Shown piece after piece: positions 2,080 to 36,920 of a stretch of DNA of 38,052 nucleotides. A model generated the notes under the pieces. That model was not told where the DNA came from. It made no database searches and saw only the letters and a list, made by a program, of their open reading frames with translations. This DNA comes from Sphingomonadales bacterium (GTDB lineage: Bacteria; Pseudomonadota; Alphaproteobacteria; Sphingomonadales; Sphingomonadaceae), in contig JAGXTB010000215.1 in NCBI GenBank assembly GCA_018334165.1, positions 1 through 38,052 of the forward strand, in the 5' to 3' direction. The stretch's first letter is position 1. Each line of letters starts with the position of its first letter. A program made the translations under genes and the position numbers.

Positions 2080-3830
2080 GGGCGGACTTTCCAGACTTTG
2101 AGCGTGCCGGCACTGGCAGGAAGCGGCACGGGTTCCAGCCAGGCCGGGGCCTGTCCGGCGAGCAGACGGGCCATCAGCCCCTTGGGCTCCATCGCGGCAT
2201 AGTTGCGCGCTTCGACCAGGTCACCGCAGGCGATCAGATAAGCGGCTTTGTGCTGGCGGACATACTCTTCGGCCTTGGCCGGATCGCTGGTGTAGGCGCG
2301 GATCACATCGCCCATCTGCACGGCGGCGCGGTGGTGGTTGGTGGCGATCACGCTGTGACGGGTATGGCGCAGCAGCGCAGGGCCGATCTCGAACGGAGCG
2401 AAAATCTTCGCTGGCGGCAAGGCCTGCAGCGCGGGCAGCGATTCAGGCAGGCTGCACCCGCGGCCCAGCACCGGAGCCTCGCCATGTGGGTCGGCCGCGG
2501 GTGGGGCGAAGTGGCTTTTCAGTTTGCCCGCGGCAAAGCCCGGGACCAGCACCAGCATGATCAGCGGCAAGACCAGCAGCCGCGCGGCCAGCTTCATCTC
2601 GCTCGCGCGGCGCAGCCATTCGGAAATCGCATAGCCCAGCGGCACCGTCGCGACGGCTGCCGCCACCGCGCTGAAGCGCGCGACCAGCAGCGCAATCACC
2701 AGCGATCCGGCCAACACCAGCGCGAAGTCCCTCAGACGTTCGCGGCGGCCATTGCTAGCGCCCAGAAAGCACAGCCCGGCGACCACCAGCGCGGCCAAAG
2801 GCGGCACCACCATCTGCACCATGTTGGGCCAGTCCTGGCGGGTCACCGGCAGGCCTTCGAGCACATTGTTGTACCAGACCTGGCGGACCAAGGGATCGAG
2901 CGCGGCGAAGGGACCGGCCATGCAGGTGGGGGTCAGTGCAAGGTAAGCAGCCCCGGTCAGCGCGGCAGCGCCGCCCAGCAGTGCAGCGATGACCAGCGGT
3001 GAGGCTTTCTCAATTCGGGCGATCATGCCGACCAGCAGCGCCGCCAAGGTAAAGCCGATCAGGTAAGTCGGGGTCACCGTGTCGCAATGCGTGTCGAACA
3101 CAGGCCCACGCGTCAGGGCAAACGTGGCGATAGACGTCAGCGCCAGGCTGGCGAGCATCTGCACCAGCCAGCCGCGCTGCGCGGGATCGCGCAGCCATTT
3201 GAGGCTGAGAACGGCGGCAAACAGCGCCGCGAAGGGCAGCAGCTCCAGACTGATCGACAGCCCGAGCGCAAGCGCAATGCCGATCACTCGCCCGCCGCGT
3301 TTAGCGCTGGACGAGAGCAGGCCATTGATCGCGGCCAGTTCGGCGACGATCTGCCAACCGTGGTGGTCGATCCGCATCGGCTGGAGCTGGGTCAGCGCCG
3401 CCAGGGCCATGATCCAGACCAGGCAGGTGGCATAGGCGGCGCGTGTCCCAAACAGCTTGAGAGCAATCCGCGCGGTCAGCAGCATGGCACACAGCAGGGT
3501 CAGCAGCGGCACGATCACCGCTGCGGCCAGCTCGGCCATGGCTTGCCCGATGAACGGCTTCAGCAGCAGGATCACCAAGGCCAGCGGCGCATCGACCAGC
3601 CGCGACCAATGGGTCGCAACCCCGGCCGGTGCATCGATCCGGTATTGGTGCAGGTCGAACCAATGTTGCCCAGCCAGCAGGTCGCGAACCTGGACCAGCC
3701 GCAGCACATCGTCGGGATCGGCCAGCTGAAAGCTGGTGATTTGCGCCCAGTTGCGCACAACCAGCATCGCAGCCACGCCCAGCCAGGCGAGCACAATCCG
3801 CTGCCAGAAAAACCTTGGTGTCTGGGTCAT
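2076..3830 (-). CDS. Multi-TM protein resembling GT-C/oligosaccharyltransferase-type membrane glycosyltransferase
   Basis: 584 aa, many hydrophobic helices, early DPDDVLRL acidic motif in the first periplasmic loop position; adjacent GtrA gene. Confidence 0.6.
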   Translation of the reverse strand: MTQTPRFFWQRIVLAWLGVAAMLVVRNWAQITSFQLADPDDVLRLVQVRDLLAGQHWFDLHQYRIDAPAGVATHWSRLVDAPLALVILLLKPFIGQAMAELAAAVIVPLLTLLCAMLLTARIALKLFGTRAAYATCLVWIMALAALTQLQPMRIDHHGWQIVAELAAINGLLSSSAKRGGRVIGIALALGLSISLELLPFAALFAAVLSLKWLRDPAQRGWLVQMLASLALTSIATFALTRGPVFDTHCDTVTPTYLIGFTLAALLVGMIARIEKASPLVIAALLGGAAALTGAAYLALTPTCMAGPFAALDPLVRQVWYNNVLEGLPVTRQDWPNMVQMVVPPLAALVVAGLCFLGASNGRRERLRDFALVLAGSLVIALLVARFSAVAAAVATVPLGYAISEWLRRASEMKLAARLLVLPLIMLVLVPGFAAGKLKSHFAPPAADPHGEAPVLGRGCSLPESLPALQALPPAKIFAPFEIGPALLRHTRHSVIATNHHRAAVQMGDVIRAYTSDPAKAEEYVRQHKAAYLIACGDLVEARNYAAMEPKGLMARLLAGQAPAWLEPVPLPASAGTLKVWKVRP

Positions 3831-4254: not shown

Positions 4255-5877
4255 TCAGGCCGCGTCGCGGCGCTTGGCGGGAGCGATGCGTTCGGGCACT
4301 TCGCGCACCGAGGCAAGCGCGGCGGCCTGATCTTCGCTCACTTCGCGGCGGGTCTCGGGCAGTTTCACTTGTTTGCCCTCGTCACCGGCTTCGTGATACT
4401 CGGCGTCCTCGTTGACGCACCAGGTGTCATAGACCCGCGACCCGGCAATGATGTTCTCCACCGTGAGCATCGCGGTCATCATCGCGTGGTCCTGGTTGTT
4501 GTAACGGTGCATGCCGTTGCGGCCGACCAGGTGCAGCGTGGGATGGCGCTCTTCCAGCTCCATGCGCATCGCGGCGACGTGGGAAGCGTAGTCTTCGTCA
4601 TAGACCGGATAGGCCTTTTCCTGACGGACAACCGCGCCGCCGATCACTTGTTCGGCCGAAACCAGGCCGAGCTGGGCCAGCTCGCGGGTGGCGAGTTCGA
4701 TCAGGTCCGCATCGCTCGACGACCACAGCCCGTCGCCTTCGAAGCAGAAGTATTCGAGCCCGACACAGGCCACGCTTTCATCGGGTACCATTTCGGGCGA
4801 CCACGAGCGGAAATTCTGGATCCGGCCGACCTTCACCTTGCTGTCGTGGATATAGATCCAGTTGTCGGGGAACAGGTCGTCGGACTTGATCTTGAGCGCC
4901 ACGGTCAGGAAGTCGCGGTAGCGCAGCTGCTTGGCGTTGAGCGTGGTCGCGGGCAGCGGGTGCAGCCGCGCGGCAAGTTCGCGCATCGGCGCCGAGCTGA
5001 TGGCGTGCCTGGCCTTGATCGTGACTTCGCCGCCATCATGCGTGGCGGTCATGCGCCAGCCGCCCTGGCCATCGCCAAAGGACATTGGGGCAAGCTGCTT
5101 GAGCGCGTGGCCCATCAGCACTTCGCCCTTGCCGGTGGCCTGCATCTTGGCGCGCGCGGCGTCCCACATCATGCCGGGGCCCTGGCGCGGGTAGCGGAAG
5201 GTTTCGAGCAGGGTTTTGACTTCCTGCCCGTCGTTGGGCCGCTTGTTGAGGCCCAGGCTGCGCTTCAGCCCATCGACCACTGCGCCCCACAGCGACAGGC
5301 CCTTGATCCGCTGCGCGGCCCAGTCGGCGCTCATTTCGTCGCAGGGCATGCCCCAGACCTTCTCGGTATAGGTCTTGAAGAAGATCGAATAGAGCTTCCA
5401 GCCGAACTGGTTCACGGTCCAGTCCTCGAAGCTTTTGACCGCCTTGTTCGGAAATAGCTGCGCTTTGGCGAAGCTCAGCATGCACAGCGTCGAACGGATA
5501 ATGCCCAGGTTCCACAGCGCCTCGAAAGCGCGCAGCGGGTAGCTGTAGAATTTGCCCTCGTAATAGATCCGGCTCATCCGCGGGCGCTGGATGAAATCGT
5601 CGGGCAGAATCTCGTTCCACAGATCGACGACTTGTTGGCTCTTCGAAAAGAACCGGTGCCCGCCGATATCGAAGCGGTAGCCTTCGTGTTCCACGGTGCG
5701 GCTGATCCCGCCAACATAGGTCGGATCTTTCTCGATCACCGCGACCGTGAGGCCAGCCTTGGTCAAAAGGTAACCGGCGGTCAGGCCCGCAGGCCCCGCG
5801 CCGATAATCGCCACATCGACCACTTTTCCGCGGGATTTGGCGCGCTTTGACGCCCCAGTGAAGCCAGCAACAGACAT
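4255..5877 (-). CDS. NAD(P)/FAD-dependent oxidoreductase (amine oxidase / UDP-galactopyranose mutase-like)
   Basis: VDVAIIGAGPAGLTAGYLLTKAGLTVAVIEKD Rossmann motif; GGHRFFSK; start at MSVAGFTGASK (5877). Confidence 0.85.
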   Translation of the reverse strand: MSVAGFTGASKRAKSRGKVVDVAIIGAGPAGLTAGYLLTKAGLTVAVIEKDPTYVGGISRTVEHEGYRFDIGGHRFFSKSQQVVDLWNEILPDDFIQRPRMSRIYYEGKFYSYPLRAFEALWNLGIIRSTLCMLSFAKAQLFPNKAVKSFEDWTVNQFGWKLYSIFFKTYTEKVWGMPCDEMSADWAAQRIKGLSLWGAVVDGLKRSLGLNKRPNDGQEVKTLLETFRYPRQGPGMMWDAARAKMQATGKGEVLMGHALKQLAPMSFGDGQGGWRMTATHDGGEVTIKARHAISSAPMRELAARLHPLPATTLNAKQLRYRDFLTVALKIKSDDLFPDNWIYIHDSKVKVGRIQNFRSWSPEMVPDESVACVGLEYFCFEGDGLWSSSDADLIELATRELAQLGLVSAEQVIGGAVVRQEKAYPVYDEDYASHVAAMRMELEERHPTLHLVGRNGMHRYNNQDHAMMTAMLTVENIIAGSRVYDTWCVNEDAEYHEAGDEGKQVKLPETRREVSEDQAAALASVREVPERIAPAKRRDAA

Positions 5878-30023: not shown

Positions 30024-30434
30024 CTACGATCCTGGCGAGATTATCTCCAAATCTGGAAAGTAAGTGGAAACCTTCTTTGTGTCTCGAGTGATCAGTGGTT
30101 TCTTTTCGGTTTCGGCAAGCGCCCCGATGAAAAAATCTGGTAGGACCCCTTCCTTTGGACCCTTGTTCTCTTCTTTGTACTTACGGAACGCCTTTGCAGC
30201 CCTAAAAAGTGCAGCGTCCGTGTAGCCGCAGCGGGCAAGAGCGAGAGCTGAGATTGCCTCATCGACTTCCGCTACGCTTTTCATTCCATATGATAGCTCA
30301 CTGTAAGCGGCATCAGACACAAAAACTGGGCCAAGCGCTTTGGCCTTTGCGATATGATCGCGGCACCATTGATGATCTTTAGCATCAGTCTCGAGCAATT
30401 CGAACAAAACGCTTGTATCGACAAATGACGTCAT
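30024..30434 (-). CDS. PIN domain (VapC-like) ribonuclease
   Basis: MTSFVDTSVLFE, SELSYG, LPDFFIGALAE, LITRDTKKVSTYFPDLEII: all PIN acidic positions. Confidence 0.88.
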   Translation of the reverse strand: MTSFVDTSVLFELLETDAKDHQWCRDHIAKAKALGPVFVSDAAYSELSYGMKSVAEVDEAISALALARCGYTDAALFRAAKAFRKYKEENKGPKEGVLPDFFIGALAETEKKPLITRDTKKVSTYFPDLEIISPGS

Positions 30435-31516
30435 TCGCCCCTCGTCATCGCTAATATGTCCTCAGCGGACATATCTGGTGAAATTCCTCGATCCTTTAGT
30501 TCCTGAATAGCATTTGCGACTCTGCTTTTGACGAAACTTGTAACGTCGAATGAGTCTAGTTCATCAACTTCAAATGTAACAAATCCAGCGATATAAGTCG
30601 CGAGCATGGCGCATGCGCGAGGAATCGCTTTGCGCGCAGTCGCGTCTTCAGGATGAAATGCGCCAACAGGATTTGGATCGTTCGCAAAGTGGTTCAACTG
30701 CGGCAGCTGAACCGCCTGGCGCTCGCGAGTAGCATCTTCGTTCAGTCGGTTAACCCCACCACACGCCGAATAGAGCGCGCAAAAGTTTGTCGCCGCAAGA
30801 TCTTTCTGCAGACTTCGCGCTCCGCTAATTGATGGGTAGCCCGACTTACTAAGAAGCCCAAGAAGTGAATTTCCGTCACTAACTTGATCCGCCATGCCAA
30901 CGGAAAGTAGATATCTGTCCAATGCGAGGAACAATCCGTTGAGCCACCATTGTTCAGGTTTTGTCGATTCGAAATCTCGAACTCGCCCTAGTTTATATAG
31001 ATAGCTTAGATTTGTTGCGAGTTTTCGACTGGTCTTCGCTCTATATCTGGAATCATTGGAAACAAAAGTTTCAATATCGTTCGCAGAAATAGATCTTGTG
31101 TTCCAAGCTAACTGACTCCCGACCCGATCTGCCAGATAATGGAAAGCCCACAGCGCAGGTCGAGATTGATAAGGTGCCGCCCTCTTCCAGTGCCCGACCC
31201 TGCTTAAATGGAACGCTACGAGAGCGAGCCTGTCAAAATGCGCAGAGTGCTTAAAATTTATTGCTTGAAAAACTAGCTCATCGACGCAGACAAAATCGAT
31301 ACCATTTCGAATCTGATTGAATAAAAAAAAGTTTAGCGGGATGTAATCAGGCCTATCAATAGAGATAATGCGCTTTCGGAATTCGCTGCGTGTGACATCC
31401 CGAAGTTGGCCCTCGAACCCAATTCTTATTACTCGATGCAATTCAGCAAAACCGCGAGTTTCCGGCCCCCAGCTAAAGTTCTTAGTGAAACTTCCAGGAT
31501 GCCACTCATCTAGCAT
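30431..31516 (-). CDS. Uncharacterised 361-aa protein of MT-A70/PIN cassette
   Basis: Long ORF overlapping the PIN start by 4 nt and starting 2 nt after the MT-A70 stop. Confidence 0.8.
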   Translation of the reverse strand: MLDEWHPGSFTKNFSWGPETRGFAELHRVIRIGFEGQLRDVTRSEFRKRIISIDRPDYIPLNFFLFNQIRNGIDFVCVDELVFQAINFKHSAHFDRLALVAFHLSRVGHWKRAAPYQSRPALWAFHYLADRVGSQLAWNTRSISANDIETFVSNDSRYRAKTSRKLATNLSYLYKLGRVRDFESTKPEQWWLNGLFLALDRYLLSVGMADQVSDGNSLLGLLSKSGYPSISGARSLQKDLAATNFCALYSACGGVNRLNEDATRERQAVQLPQLNHFANDPNPVGAFHPEDATARKAIPRACAMLATYIAGFVTFEVDELDSFDVTSFVKSRVANAIQELKDRGISPDMSAEDILAMTRGE

Positions 31517-31518
31517 TG

Positions 31519-32160
31519 CTAGCCCACTACCTTCTTCAATTTAGACTGACTGTGATTTGAATAAGTGCGCCAGTCAATCTCATAGACTTCTGCTTGGTTG
31601 CCCCAAGCGTCCCAGCCAGGCCGCTTGCCTCGAGCGAACAGTTCGACTTGTGGTCCGGGGCTACAGGACTCTATGATCTTATATAGCTCGTCTGGCTTGC
31701 GACTGTGTTCACGCTTTTGTGTTGCCAGGAAATTGACCTGAGAACGTCCAGGTTGAAGCGTACGGGCACCCTTTCCGCGAACACCAAACAGAATGACCTC
31801 TGTCACATTGCGAAAATAGAATCCCACACCCCTGCCATCCGGCCCCCCGTCCTTGCGGACTTTGTGCCAAATTATGTTAGTCTTGTAGGTGAATCCCCAT
31901 GCTTCCATGACTTCCATGCCCTCTGCGAGGAGTGCGTTTGGAACCCAAAGATACAGGTGCGCAGGTTCGTCTGCGATTAGGCTGACAGGAAGTGCTTTAA
32001 TGTCCTCCAGATTCATTGTCCCATACCTGTTGAGACGCCTGTGCTCGGGAGCCATCTTGCCTGTGCGGTTCGCGAATCGCCAAGGGGGATCCGCCAAAAT
32101 AGTTCGGAACTTCTTCCCCTCAAAATAGGTCGCAAAGTCTTTGACTGCTGAGAGTGTCAT
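31519..32160 (-). CDS. MT-A70 family adenine methyltransferase
   Basis: ADPPWRFANRTGKMAPEHRRLNRYGTMNLEDIKALPV...HLYLWVPNALLAEGMEVMEAWGFTYKTNIIWHK; DPPW catalytic motif. Confidence 0.92.
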   Translation of the reverse strand: MTLSAVKDFATYFEGKKFRTILADPPWRFANRTGKMAPEHRRLNRYGTMNLEDIKALPVSLIADEPAHLYLWVPNALLAEGMEVMEAWGFTYKTNIIWHKVRKDGGPDGRGVGFYFRNVTEVILFGVRGKGARTLQPGRSQVNFLATQKREHSRKPDELYKIIESCSPGPQVELFARGKRPGWDAWGNQAEVYEIDWRTYSNHSQSKLKKVVG

Positions 32161-32164
32161 GGAG

Positions 32165-33232
32165 TCACTCCGCCGCTACACCGGAGCTACCAAACATATC
32201 CGGCTCACTCCCGGCCTCAACCTCCAGGTCGTTCGCCCCGGCAATGTCGCTCTTAGCCTTGCGGCGTGAGTCAAAGCTCGACCACACGTCGTTCCAGTTC
32301 CCGCGGGTCGCGGCTTTCGAATACTCGGTTGCGCGGGTTTCGAAGAAGTTGGCGTGTTCTACGCCGTTGAGCAGCGGGGCGAGCCAGGGGAGGGGGTGGT
32401 CTTCGATCATGTAGATCGCGGGCAGGCCCAGCTGGCTAAGCCGCCAGTCGGCGATGTAGCGGATGTAGCGTTTGATTTCCTTGGGGCTCATGCCGGGGAC
32501 CGGGCCGAGCTCAAACGCGAGGTCGATGAAGTTGTCTTCCAGCCGCACGGTCTTCTGGCAGCAGTCGATGATGTCTTCCTTGACCGACTTGGTCAGGCAC
32601 TGACGCTCGGCGCAGAAGGCGTGGAACAGCTTGATGATGCCTTCGCAGTGGAGGCTTTCGTCGCGCACCGACCAGGATACGATCTGGCCCATGCCCTTCA
32701 TCTTGTTGAAGCGCGGGAAGTTCATCAGCATGGCGAAGCTGGCGAACAGCTGCATGCCTTCGGTGAAGCCGCCGAACATGGCGAGCGTGCGGGCGATATC
32801 CTCGTCGCTATCGACCCCGAAAGTGTGCATGTAGCTGCACTTTTCGGCCATTTCGCTGTATTCGAGGAAGGCGCTGTATTCGCTTTCGGGCATGCCGATG
32901 GTGTCAAGCAGGTGCGAATAGGCGGCGATGTGGACCGTCTCCATGTTGCTGAACGCGGCCAGCATCATCTTGACTTCGGTCGGCTTGAACACCCGGCCGT
33001 ACTGCTCGTGATAGCAGTTCTGCACCTCGATATCGGCCTGGGTGAAGAAGCGGAAGATCTGCGTGAGCAGGTTCTTCTCATGCTCGGACAGCTTCTGCGC
33101 CCAGTCGCGGCAATCTTCGCCCAAAGGAACTTCCTCTGGCATCCAGTGGACCTGCTGCTGGCGCTTCCAGAACTCGTAAGCCCAGGGGTATTCGAACGGC
33201 TTGTAGCTTTTGCGGGCTTCGAGCAGGGGCAT
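32165..33232 (-). CDS. nrdB: Ribonucleotide reductase subunit beta
   Basis: EKNLLTQIFRFFTQADIEVQNCYHEQY...NMETVHIAAYSHLLDTIG...SWSVRDESLHCEGI. Confidence 0.96.
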   Translation of the reverse strand: MPLLEARKSYKPFEYPWAYEFWKRQQQVHWMPEEVPLGEDCRDWAQKLSEHEKNLLTQIFRFFTQADIEVQNCYHEQYGRVFKPTEVKMMLAAFSNMETVHIAAYSHLLDTIGMPESEYSAFLEYSEMAEKCSYMHTFGVDSDEDIARTLAMFGGFTEGMQLFASFAMLMNFPRFNKMKGMGQIVSWSVRDESLHCEGIIKLFHAFCAERQCLTKSVKEDIIDCCQKTVRLEDNFIDLAFELGPVPGMSPKEIKRYIRYIADWRLSQLGLPAIYMIEDHPLPWLAPLLNGVEHANFFETRATEYSKAATRGNWNDVWSSFDSRRKAKSDIAGANDLEVEAGSEPDMFGSSGVAAE

Positions 33233-34873: not shown

Positions 34874-34894
34874 CCTACTGGCAGCTCAGGCACT
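34874..34894. repeat. 21-bp direct repeat, copy B (native nrdA 3' end)
   Basis: Encodes the CLSCQ-stop terminus of NrdA. Confidence 0.95.
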
Positions 34895-36920
34895 CGTCGT
34901 AATCGGTGGTGGGCAGCTCGTAAGTGGCGGGCTCGGTGGTATTGTCCGCCTCGACCCCGCCGGCGAACCCAGCGCGCTGGACCGACTTCGAGCGCAGGTA
35001 GTAGAGGCTCTTGATCCCCTTCTCCCAGGCCTGGAAGTGCAGCATGGCCAGATCCCACTTGTCGACATCGGCGGGGATGTAGAGGTTCAGCGACTGCGCC
35101 TGGTCGATATAGGGCGTGCGGTCGGCCGCGAATTCGAGCAGCCAGCGCTGGTCGATTTCGAAGCTGGTCTTGTAGACCGCCTTTTCCTCTGGCGAGAGGA
35201 AGTCGAGGTGCTGGACCGAGCCGCCGTGCTCAAGGATCGAGTTCCACACTGCGGTCGAATCCTTGCTCTTGGTTTGCAGCAAGGCCTCAAGGTAGGGGTT
35301 CTTGACCACGAAGCTGCCCGACAGCGTCTTGTGGGTATAGATGTTGGCCGGGATCGGCTCGATGCAGGCGCTGGTGCCGCCGCAGATGATCGAGATCGAC
35401 GCGGTCGGCGCGATTGCCATCTTGCAGCTGAAGCGCTGCATCACGCCCATGTCGGCCGCATCGGGGCAGGCGCCGCGTTCTTGCGCGAGCATCAGGCTGG
35501 CCTCATCGGCCTTGGCGGCGATGTGGCGGAACATCTTCAGGTTCCAGGCCTTGGCCATCGCGGTTTCGAAACCGATACCCTTCTTCTGCAGGAACGAGTG
35601 GAAACCCATCACGCCCATGCCGACCGAGCGTTCGCGCATGGCCGAATACTTGGCCCTGGCCATTTCGTCCGGCGCGCGGTCGATATAGTCCTGCAGCACG
35701 TTGTCGAGGAAGCGCAGCACGTCTTCGACGAACAGGTCTTCGCCCTGCCATTCGTCCCAGGTTTCCAGGTTGAGACTGGACAGGCAGCAGACCGCGGTGC
35801 GATCGTTGCCAAGGTGGTCCTTGCCGGTGGGGAGCGTGATTTCCGAGCACAAGTTCGAGGTCGAGACCTTCAGCCCCAGATCGCGGTGATGCTTGGGCAT
35901 CATCCGGTTCACGGTGTCAGAGAAGACGATGTAGGGTTCGCCCGTGGCGAGCCGGGTTTCGACCAGCTTCTGGAACAGGCTCCGCGCATCGACCGTGGCG
36001 CGGATCGACTGGTCCTTGGGCGAACGCAGGTGGAATTCGGCGCCGTCGCGCACGGCTTCCATGAATTCGTCGGTCAGCAGCACGCCGTGGTGCAGGTTGA
36101 GCGCCTTGCGGTTGAAATCGCCCGAAGGCTTGCGGATCTCGAGGAACTCCTCGATCTCGGGGTGCGAGACGTCGAGATAGCAGGCGGCCGAACCGCGCCG
36201 CAGCGAGCCTTGCGAAATGGCGAGCGTCAGGCTGTCCATCACCCGCACGAACGGAATGATGCCAGAGGTCTTACCGTTGAGGCCAACCGGCTCGCCGATC
36301 CCGCGAACATTGCCCCAATAGGTCCCGATCCCGCCGCCGCGGCTGGCCAGCCAGACGTTCTCGTTCCAGGTCCCGACGATGCCTTCCAGACTGTCCGAAA
36401 CCGAATTGAGGTAGCAGCTGATTGGCAGGCCGCGGTTGGTGCCGCCGTTCGACAGCACTGGCGTCGCCGGCATGAACCACAGGCGGCTGATGTAATCATA
36501 GAGCCGCTGGGCATGGGCCTCGTCATCGGCATAGGCCGCGGCGACGCGCGCGAAGAGGTCCTGATAGCGTTCGCCCGGGAGCAGGTAGCGATCGTCGAGC
36601 GTGTCCTTGCCGAAATCGGTCAGCAACGCATCGCGCGCGTGATCGACCTCGATCGCGAAGCGGCGGTCGTGGATCGCCTTGGAATCGTCTGCGTCTTTTT
36701 GCCCCATGCCCGCCCCAGCTGCGGCGGCAGTGATCGCACCGGCCAGCGCTTCGGCACCCAGCTTTGCCACCAGTGCGTCACTACCCTGATCGCTTTTCTC
36801 GGTCATTGCCACGGCGGGTTCCGCCTCCTTGCTCTTGCGAACCTTGGTCTTCACGTCGCCCGACGCGAGCGCTGCTTCCACTTCGGCCATGCCTGGCTCG
36901 TCTCCGTTCCTGAATTCCAC
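34875..36920 (-). CDS. nrdA: Ribonucleotide reductase subunit alpha
   Basis: SNLCSEITLP, PTASISIICGGTSACIEPIPANIYTHKTLSGSF, C-terminal CLSCQ redox pair. Confidence 0.96.
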   Translation of the reverse strand: MEFRNGDEPGMAEVEAALASGDVKTKVRKSKEAEPAVAMTEKSDQGSDALVAKLGAEALAGAITAAAAGAGMGQKDADDSKAIHDRRFAIEVDHARDALLTDFGKDTLDDRYLLPGERYQDLFARVAAAYADDEAHAQRLYDYISRLWFMPATPVLSNGGTNRGLPISCYLNSVSDSLEGIVGTWNENVWLASRGGGIGTYWGNVRGIGEPVGLNGKTSGIIPFVRVMDSLTLAISQGSLRRGSAACYLDVSHPEIEEFLEIRKPSGDFNRKALNLHHGVLLTDEFMEAVRDGAEFHLRSPKDQSIRATVDARSLFQKLVETRLATGEPYIVFSDTVNRMMPKHHRDLGLKVSTSNLCSEITLPTGKDHLGNDRTAVCCLSSLNLETWDEWQGEDLFVEDVLRFLDNVLQDYIDRAPDEMARAKYSAMRERSVGMGVMGFHSFLQKKGIGFETAMAKAWNLKMFRHIAAKADEASLMLAQERGACPDAADMGVMQRFSCKMAIAPTASISIICGGTSACIEPIPANIYTHKTLSGSFVVKNPYLEALLQTKSKDSTAVWNSILEHGGSVQHLDFLSPEEKAVYKTSFEIDQRWLLEFAADRTPYIDQAQSLNLYIPADVDKWDLAMLHFQAWEKGIKSLYYLRSKSVQRAGFAGGVEADNTTEPATYELPTTDYDECLSCQ

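Follow-up and report, generated by a model that had tools for sequence, protein, structure and literature searches.

Three adjacent genes in the 38,052-nucleotide stretch of DNA that was analysed (the window) encode an MT-A70 methyltransferase, a 361-aa protein (U361) and a PIN nuclease. Do these genes form one system and, if so, how would a methyltransferase be connected with a nuclease? A sequence-only reading had proposed a modification-gated toxin or a restriction system at the RNA or DNA level. Below, the cassette is described, its relatives are compared, and the possible functions are weighed.

The cassette and its three proteins

The ORF coordinates (Table 1) confirmed the three co-directional genes, with their 2-nt spacing and 4-nt overlap, all on the minus strand. 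The gap between the nrdB stop and the MT-A70 start is only 4 nt, a point that the sequence-only reading had missed. By this position, the cassette is an extension of the ribonucleotide reductase gene cluster. The arrangement of the three genes is not due to chance, since it is conserved in 24 further loci. The described A/T-richness was also found: GC contents were 52% (MT-A70), 47% (U361) and 49% (PIN), compared with 62.4% over the whole window and 59.8% in nrdB, and the third-codon GC was 43-56% in the cassette genes versus 85% in nrdB. The idea that the low GC marks only U361-PIN as foreign was ruled out because endonuclease-linked methyltransferase genes are just as GC-poor. Just downstream of PIN (window:29768-29962) are the two 23-nt arms of an imperfect inverted repeat, spaced 149 nt apart.

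Table 1. Positions of the cassette genes, their key residues and neighboring genes (window coordinates unless a locus is named)
Feature	Position	Strand	Remarks
PIN	30024..30434	-	136 aa; 4-nt ATGA overlap with U361
PIN acidic triad	D6 30417-30419; E46 30297-30299; D100 30135-30137	-	invariant in 20/20
U361 (361-aa ORF)	30431..31516	-	starts 2 nt past the MT-A70 stop
U361 C-terminal tail (residues 343-361)	30434..30490	-	proposed PIN active-site plug
MT-A70	31519..32160 (32160 -> 31519)	-	213 aa
DPPW motif (MT-A70 residues 24-27)	32080-32091	-	
nrdB	32165..33232	-	class Ia ribonucleotide reductase small subunit; PF00268, E=1e-74; host gene marking the slot
nrdA-like gene	34875-36920		ribonucleotide reductase cluster
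RHH-like genes	L012:3742-3978; L013 about 5010-5230; L026:5055-5309; L029:5066-5314		

The methyltransferase matched PF05063 in Pfam (E=6e-32) and the Type II methyltransferase models of PADLOC (E=9e-91). The nearest PDB chains were the MT-A70 proteins 7f4r/7f4l and METTL3. It was 59-80% identical to the MT-A70 proteins of other loci, many of which are paired with BglII-type endonucleases. It is probably a DNA-specific adenine methyltransferase. The earlier alternative of DNA- or RNA-level modification was narrowed, very probably to DNA, since the same MT-A70 subfamily is elsewhere partnered with BglII/BstYI dsDNA endonucleases, the place of which is here taken by U361-PIN. Two more MT-A70 genes with equal scores, distinct from that of the cassette, were found in the genome of the window (G000:C69:5990-6493 and G000:C211:67-570).

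The PIN protein matched PF01850 (E=3e-13, Pfam). Its AF2 model had a pLDDT of 93.6, and the Foldseek matches were VapC toxins, with E-values down to 7e-6. The VapC model of NCBIfam gave a weak match (24.5 bits; cut-off 80). By sequence and predicted structure, PIN is a VapC-like nuclease with intact active-site residues.

U361 had no match in Pfam, PADLOC-DB, PHROGs, NCBIfam or the PDB sequences; the statement that the cassette does not correspond to a named defence system was therefore upheld against the first four of these libraries. The AF2 model (pLDDT 85, pTM 0.87) had a C-terminal tail of low confidence in the monomer. In Foldseek searches against the PDB and viral models, nothing was obtained at E<1, and the weak winged helix-turn-helix-like matches over 65-77 columns (4esf and 4hw0) were not significant. 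No RHH, AbrB or HTH DNA-binding domain of the small antitoxin kind was detected in U361 by Pfam or Foldseek. A DUF4007-like nature, considered for a motif resemblance, was ruled out by an hhalign profile-profile probability below 1%. Separately, in the genome of the window a DUF4007 gene neighbors one for a cysteine-desulfurase-like protein (G000:C245:33478-34329, L089), as in phosphorothioation-related systems.

The 24 intact homologues were 38-55% identical to the U361 of the window. The N-terminal two thirds are strongly conserved and contain many invariant polar residues. The tail is also conserved (P-x-M-S-A-E-E-L-M-K-L-T-R), a short helix ending in Arg. This residue, Arg359 (30440-30442), was the same in each of the 22 sequences aligned, 1-3 residues before the stop. 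In the Shigella VapBC complex, Arg64 of VapB binds Glu42 and Asp98 of VapC (PMC3384007). For VapBC11, the contacts of the conserved Arg62 are with Asp5, Glu44 and Asp116 (PMC6265470). From the likeness of the Arg359 tail to these VapB tails, we infer that U361 would be an antitoxin-like inhibitor of PIN, and its large body may be a sensor. When near-copies were left out, the distance correlations were r 0.42 for U361 and PIN, 0.47 for U361 and the methyltransferase, and 0.09 for PIN and the methyltransferase. These values are weakly consistent with U361 as a bridge between the other two proteins.

Distribution of U361 loci and apparent exchange with the endonuclease

U361 was found in three of 301 genomes of the family, one of them a fragment, and in none of the 384 other genomes sampled from the class. 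In the phylum sample of 399 genomes, it occurred only in the window's own. Searches of plasmids, genome contigs and viral contigs gave 24 further distinct intact loci, so that 25 were available including the window. The hosts, where named, were all alphaproteobacterial (Sphingomonadales, Rhizobiales, Rhodobacterales, Reyranella, Parvibaculum and Ponticaulis), and the loci were carried by conjugative plasmids, by chromosomes and by prophage-like contigs, the last with a tail-hub or integrase gene next to them. Three further records (L003, L007 and the phage record MT837752, positions 2643-3050) matched only residues about 175-316 of U361 and are probably remnants.

PIN was directly 3' of U361 in all 25 intact loci, the PIN of L013 being truncated by the contig end. 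An intact MT-A70 of one subfamily adjoined U361-PIN in 22 loci; in two more it was elsewhere in the genome, and in one the copy was dead. An intact cognate MT-A70 was therefore present at the locus or in the genome for 24 of 25. The co-occurrence of the three genes across diverse alphaproteobacterial orders, the neighborhood check that the sequence-only reading had suggested, favors a single system. MT-A70-U361-PIN is a real, recurrent and previously unannotated module; our literature searches (MT-A70 with PIN, BstYI/BglII with MT-A70, Type II R-M with VapC) found no description of the unit.

Three architectures were distinguished. Architecture A (MT-A70 > U361 > PIN, without endonuclease) comprised 12 loci (the window, L008, L009, L010, L011, L012, L013, L015, L025, L026, L028 and L029). 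Architecture B, in which a BglII/BstYI endonuclease (PF09195) is added, comprised 11 (L004, L005, L006/L045, L014, L016-L020, L024 and L027), and the common arrangement on plasmids was U361>PIN>REase<MT. Architecture C was U361-PIN alone (L021 and L022); in both of these genomes the same MT-A70 subfamily was encoded beside a BglII-type endonuclease on a different contig. PF09195 was detected anywhere in the genome in none of eight architecture-A genomes, versus all five B and C genomes tested; several of the endonuclease-free loci are from MAGs. No such endonuclease was found in the window or the rest of its draft genome.

Some neighboring genes were also recorded. In four loci without endonuclease, MT-A70 is immediately preceded by a small RHH-like gene, a possible regulator (Table 1). 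Genes with DndB/DGQHR domains adjoined the module in two distant loci (L004:2072-3253 and L012:2322-3515). In L021, U361-PIN was in a defence-island-like stretch with integrase, GmrSD-type and NaeI-type genes (L021:4707-11540). In Sphingopyxis panaciterrae, a gene for an HNH_2 protein, possibly unrelated, was about 0.5 kb downstream of PIN (L009:7975-8850).

Of 372 genomes of the class, only 18 had the MT-A70 subfamily itself; in the family, the figure was 14 of 121. From the 14 family genomes, 11 MT-A70 loci were examined for their neighbors, the window and G103 being set aside. A BglII/BstYI endonuclease adjoined MT-A70 in all 11, and nrdB flanked the pair in seven (L048, L049, L050, L051, L053, L054 and L056). 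At nrdB, the pair was mostly 3' of the gene and co-directional with it; the window has its cassette in exactly this slot. A pair beside nrdB was also present in L103, from a class member of a different family. In the class sample, the endonuclease was next to MT-A70 in 13 of 17 loci. A general rule that this MT-A70 never occurs without an effector was rejected: it was true in the family, but four of the 17 class loci had no endonuclease within 1.5 kb.

The phylogenetic trees of MT-A70 and U361 were in conflict. The MT-A70 tree placed L008, L009 and the window with the endonuclease-linked L046 and L047 of the family (100/98). Forcing the three together with L011 and L015 was rejected (p-AU 0.001), as was a single clade of all architecture-A MT-A70 proteins (p-AU 0.02). 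The U361 tree united the same three loci with L011 and L015, at a support of only 86/88. As judged from these trees, the MT-A70 of the window is from an endonuclease-linked lineage and its U361 is closer to the rhizobial MT-U361-PIN cassettes. The simplest account of this conflict is a replacement of the endonuclease by U361-PIN next to a methyltransferase that was already in place. Thus, U361-PIN appears to have been swapped in. The apparent swap is the strongest sign that U361-PIN does the job of the endonuclease or a job that makes it dispensable. U361-PIN is likely to be a pair of effectors coupled to this MT-A70 and interchangeable with the endonuclease.

Proposed mechanism and alternatives

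We propose, with a probability of about one half, that the cassette is a mobile R-M-like defence module in which a U361-restrained PIN replaces the BglII/BstYI endonuclease and MT-A70 gates PIN. MT-A70 would place m6A on host DNA at the site that the related endonucleases would cut, and U361 would use its C-terminal tail to hold the VapC-like PIN in an inactive state while sensing the state of these sites. PIN would be freed when unmodified DNA comes in or when the methyltransferase is lost. The freed nuclease would then cleave RNA (tRNA or rRNA, by analogy with VapC), and growth and phage production would stop. Where the endonuclease is also present, U361-PIN might serve as a second line. The supporting observations are the linkage, the endonuclease exchange, the intact PIN active site, the antitoxin-like gene order and the VapB-like C-terminal Arg. 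Beside the ribonucleotide reductase gene, relatives have the methyltransferase plus a DNA-cutting restriction enzyme; the VapC-like nuclease and its partner in the place of this enzyme point to a novel type of anti-virus module that depends on DNA marking. Against the proposal, U361 has no recognisable DNA-binding domain, and the region upstream of U361 contained no shared RGATCY, GATC-type or other palindrome. A scan of 295 kb of the genome for site avoidance was uninformative, as hexamers with GATC were somewhat low but many CG-rich palindromes were lower still.

One locus is not easily accounted for by strict modification gating. The MT-A70 homologue of L028 (L028:5391-5924) has RPPW for DPPW and has lost further conserved stretches, but the frame is open; at this locus only, a dead MT-A70 adjoins intact U361 and PIN. 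Either the host has a second active MT-A70, or the methyltransferase protein is itself part of the complex. The L028 protein resembles a METTL14-type pseudo-enzyme. Tentatively, the cassette may be an analogue of Type II R-M that lacks a DNase: DNA adenine methylation may gate a VapC-like RNase via U361, a large new sensor-antitoxin family, so that lost self-marking, not DNA cleavage, would arrest growth; in some lineages the MT-A70 protein, even dead, may be an inhibitory subunit.

Among the other explanations, the main rivals are DNA cutting by U361-PIN itself and a simple toxin-antitoxin pair. In true restriction, U361 would recognise an unmethylated site and PIN would cut the DNA, as a two-subunit Type II-like endonuclease with MT-A70 as the protective methylase. 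U361-PIN holds the position of the endonuclease beside the same MT-A70 and persists in genomes without the BglII enzyme, the conserved N-terminal two thirds of U361 with their invariant polar residues fit an active or recognition surface, and some PIN-fold enzymes, such as FEN-1, do cut DNA. However, every close structural match of PIN was a VapC-type RNase, a BglII-type endonuclease kept in 11 loci would be redundant, and L028 would be open to self-restriction unless its host has another methyltransferase; we consider DNA cutting by PIN unlikely. It is similarly doubtful that U361-PIN is a plain VapBC-like addiction pair with an unusually large antitoxin, which stabilises R-M loci or carrier elements without gating by MT-A70. 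The antitoxin-first order with a coupled start, the VapC-like toxin, the VapB-like terminal Arg and the frequent carriage by plasmids agree with it, and associations between R-M systems and toxin-like genes have been described (PMC3506569). Addiction alone leaves the MT-A70 subfamily in every sampled genome, even when non-adjacent, unaccounted for, and explains neither the endonuclease exchange nor the conserved 340-aa body of U361.

A decayed R-M system, in which the endonuclease was lost, MT-A70 became an orphan regulator and U361-PIN hitchhikes, is very unlikely. Orphan-looking MT-A70 genes of the subfamily do occur in the class (L099 and L110), and MT-A70 lies just 4 nt behind nrdB. In contrast, the 12 endonuclease-free loci are deeply diverged, yet all three frames are open and the catalytic residues intact; the exceptions are the dead MT-A70 in L028 and those PIN genes that are truncated by contig ends. 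Moreover, MT>U361>PIN differs from the common plasmid order, and endonuclease loss alone does not yield it. The MT-A70 family includes RNA m6A enzymes (METTL3), and PIN is an RNase fold; a system in which MT-A70 methylates an RNA and PIN cleaves the unmethylated form is nevertheless extremely improbable, as the same subfamily is partnered with dsDNA endonucleases in most genomes.

Comparison with known systems

If the gated-toxin reading is true, a toxin-antitoxin-like RNase pair can stand in for the cutting half of a Type II R-M system with the marking half retained, and one gene swap would link restriction-modification with abortive infection. It would also give a function to a conserved protein family, U361, that had no annotation in the libraries searched. 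Since the closest loci are in named strains (Sphingopyxis panaciterrae and Sandaracinobacteroides hominis), the idea is directly testable.

With the BglII/BstYI Type II R-M systems (PF09195 plus MT-A70), the cassette shares the MT-A70 subfamily, the nrdB-adjacent slot in the family and the carriage by mobile elements. It differs in that the window has no endonuclease, none being detected in the draft genome, and has U361-PIN instead. With the VapBC/FitAB type II toxin-antitoxin systems, it shares the PIN fold, the acidic triad, an upstream partner with an overlapping start and the invariant Arg in the C-terminal tail of the partner. However, the antitoxin of those systems is a small RHH/AbrB protein, whereas U361 has about 360 aa and no recognised fold, and U361-PIN is nearly always accompanied by one MT-A70 subfamily. 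DS-5, found with DefensePredictor, is a two-protein defence system made up of a PIN ribonuclease and a DUF5830/AcrIF4-like partner, which is required (PMC13092281), and is alike in this pairing; the passage on DS-5 describes no methyltransferase, and U361 matches no DUF.

The nearest precedent is PrrC-EcoprrI, in which a ribonuclease toxin is genetically linked to a DNA modification system. A type I R-M enzyme keeps the PrrC RNase silent, and unmodified DNA or an anti-restriction peptide activates it (PMC3506569). Encoded in the hsd operon, the ABC-HEPN protein PrrC is held by the Hsd complex. In contrast, the cassette combines a VapC-like PIN with MT-A70, has neither hsd genes nor an ABC protein, and persists without an endonuclease. 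MT-A70-U361-PIN belongs among the R-M-linked toxins, as a new form.
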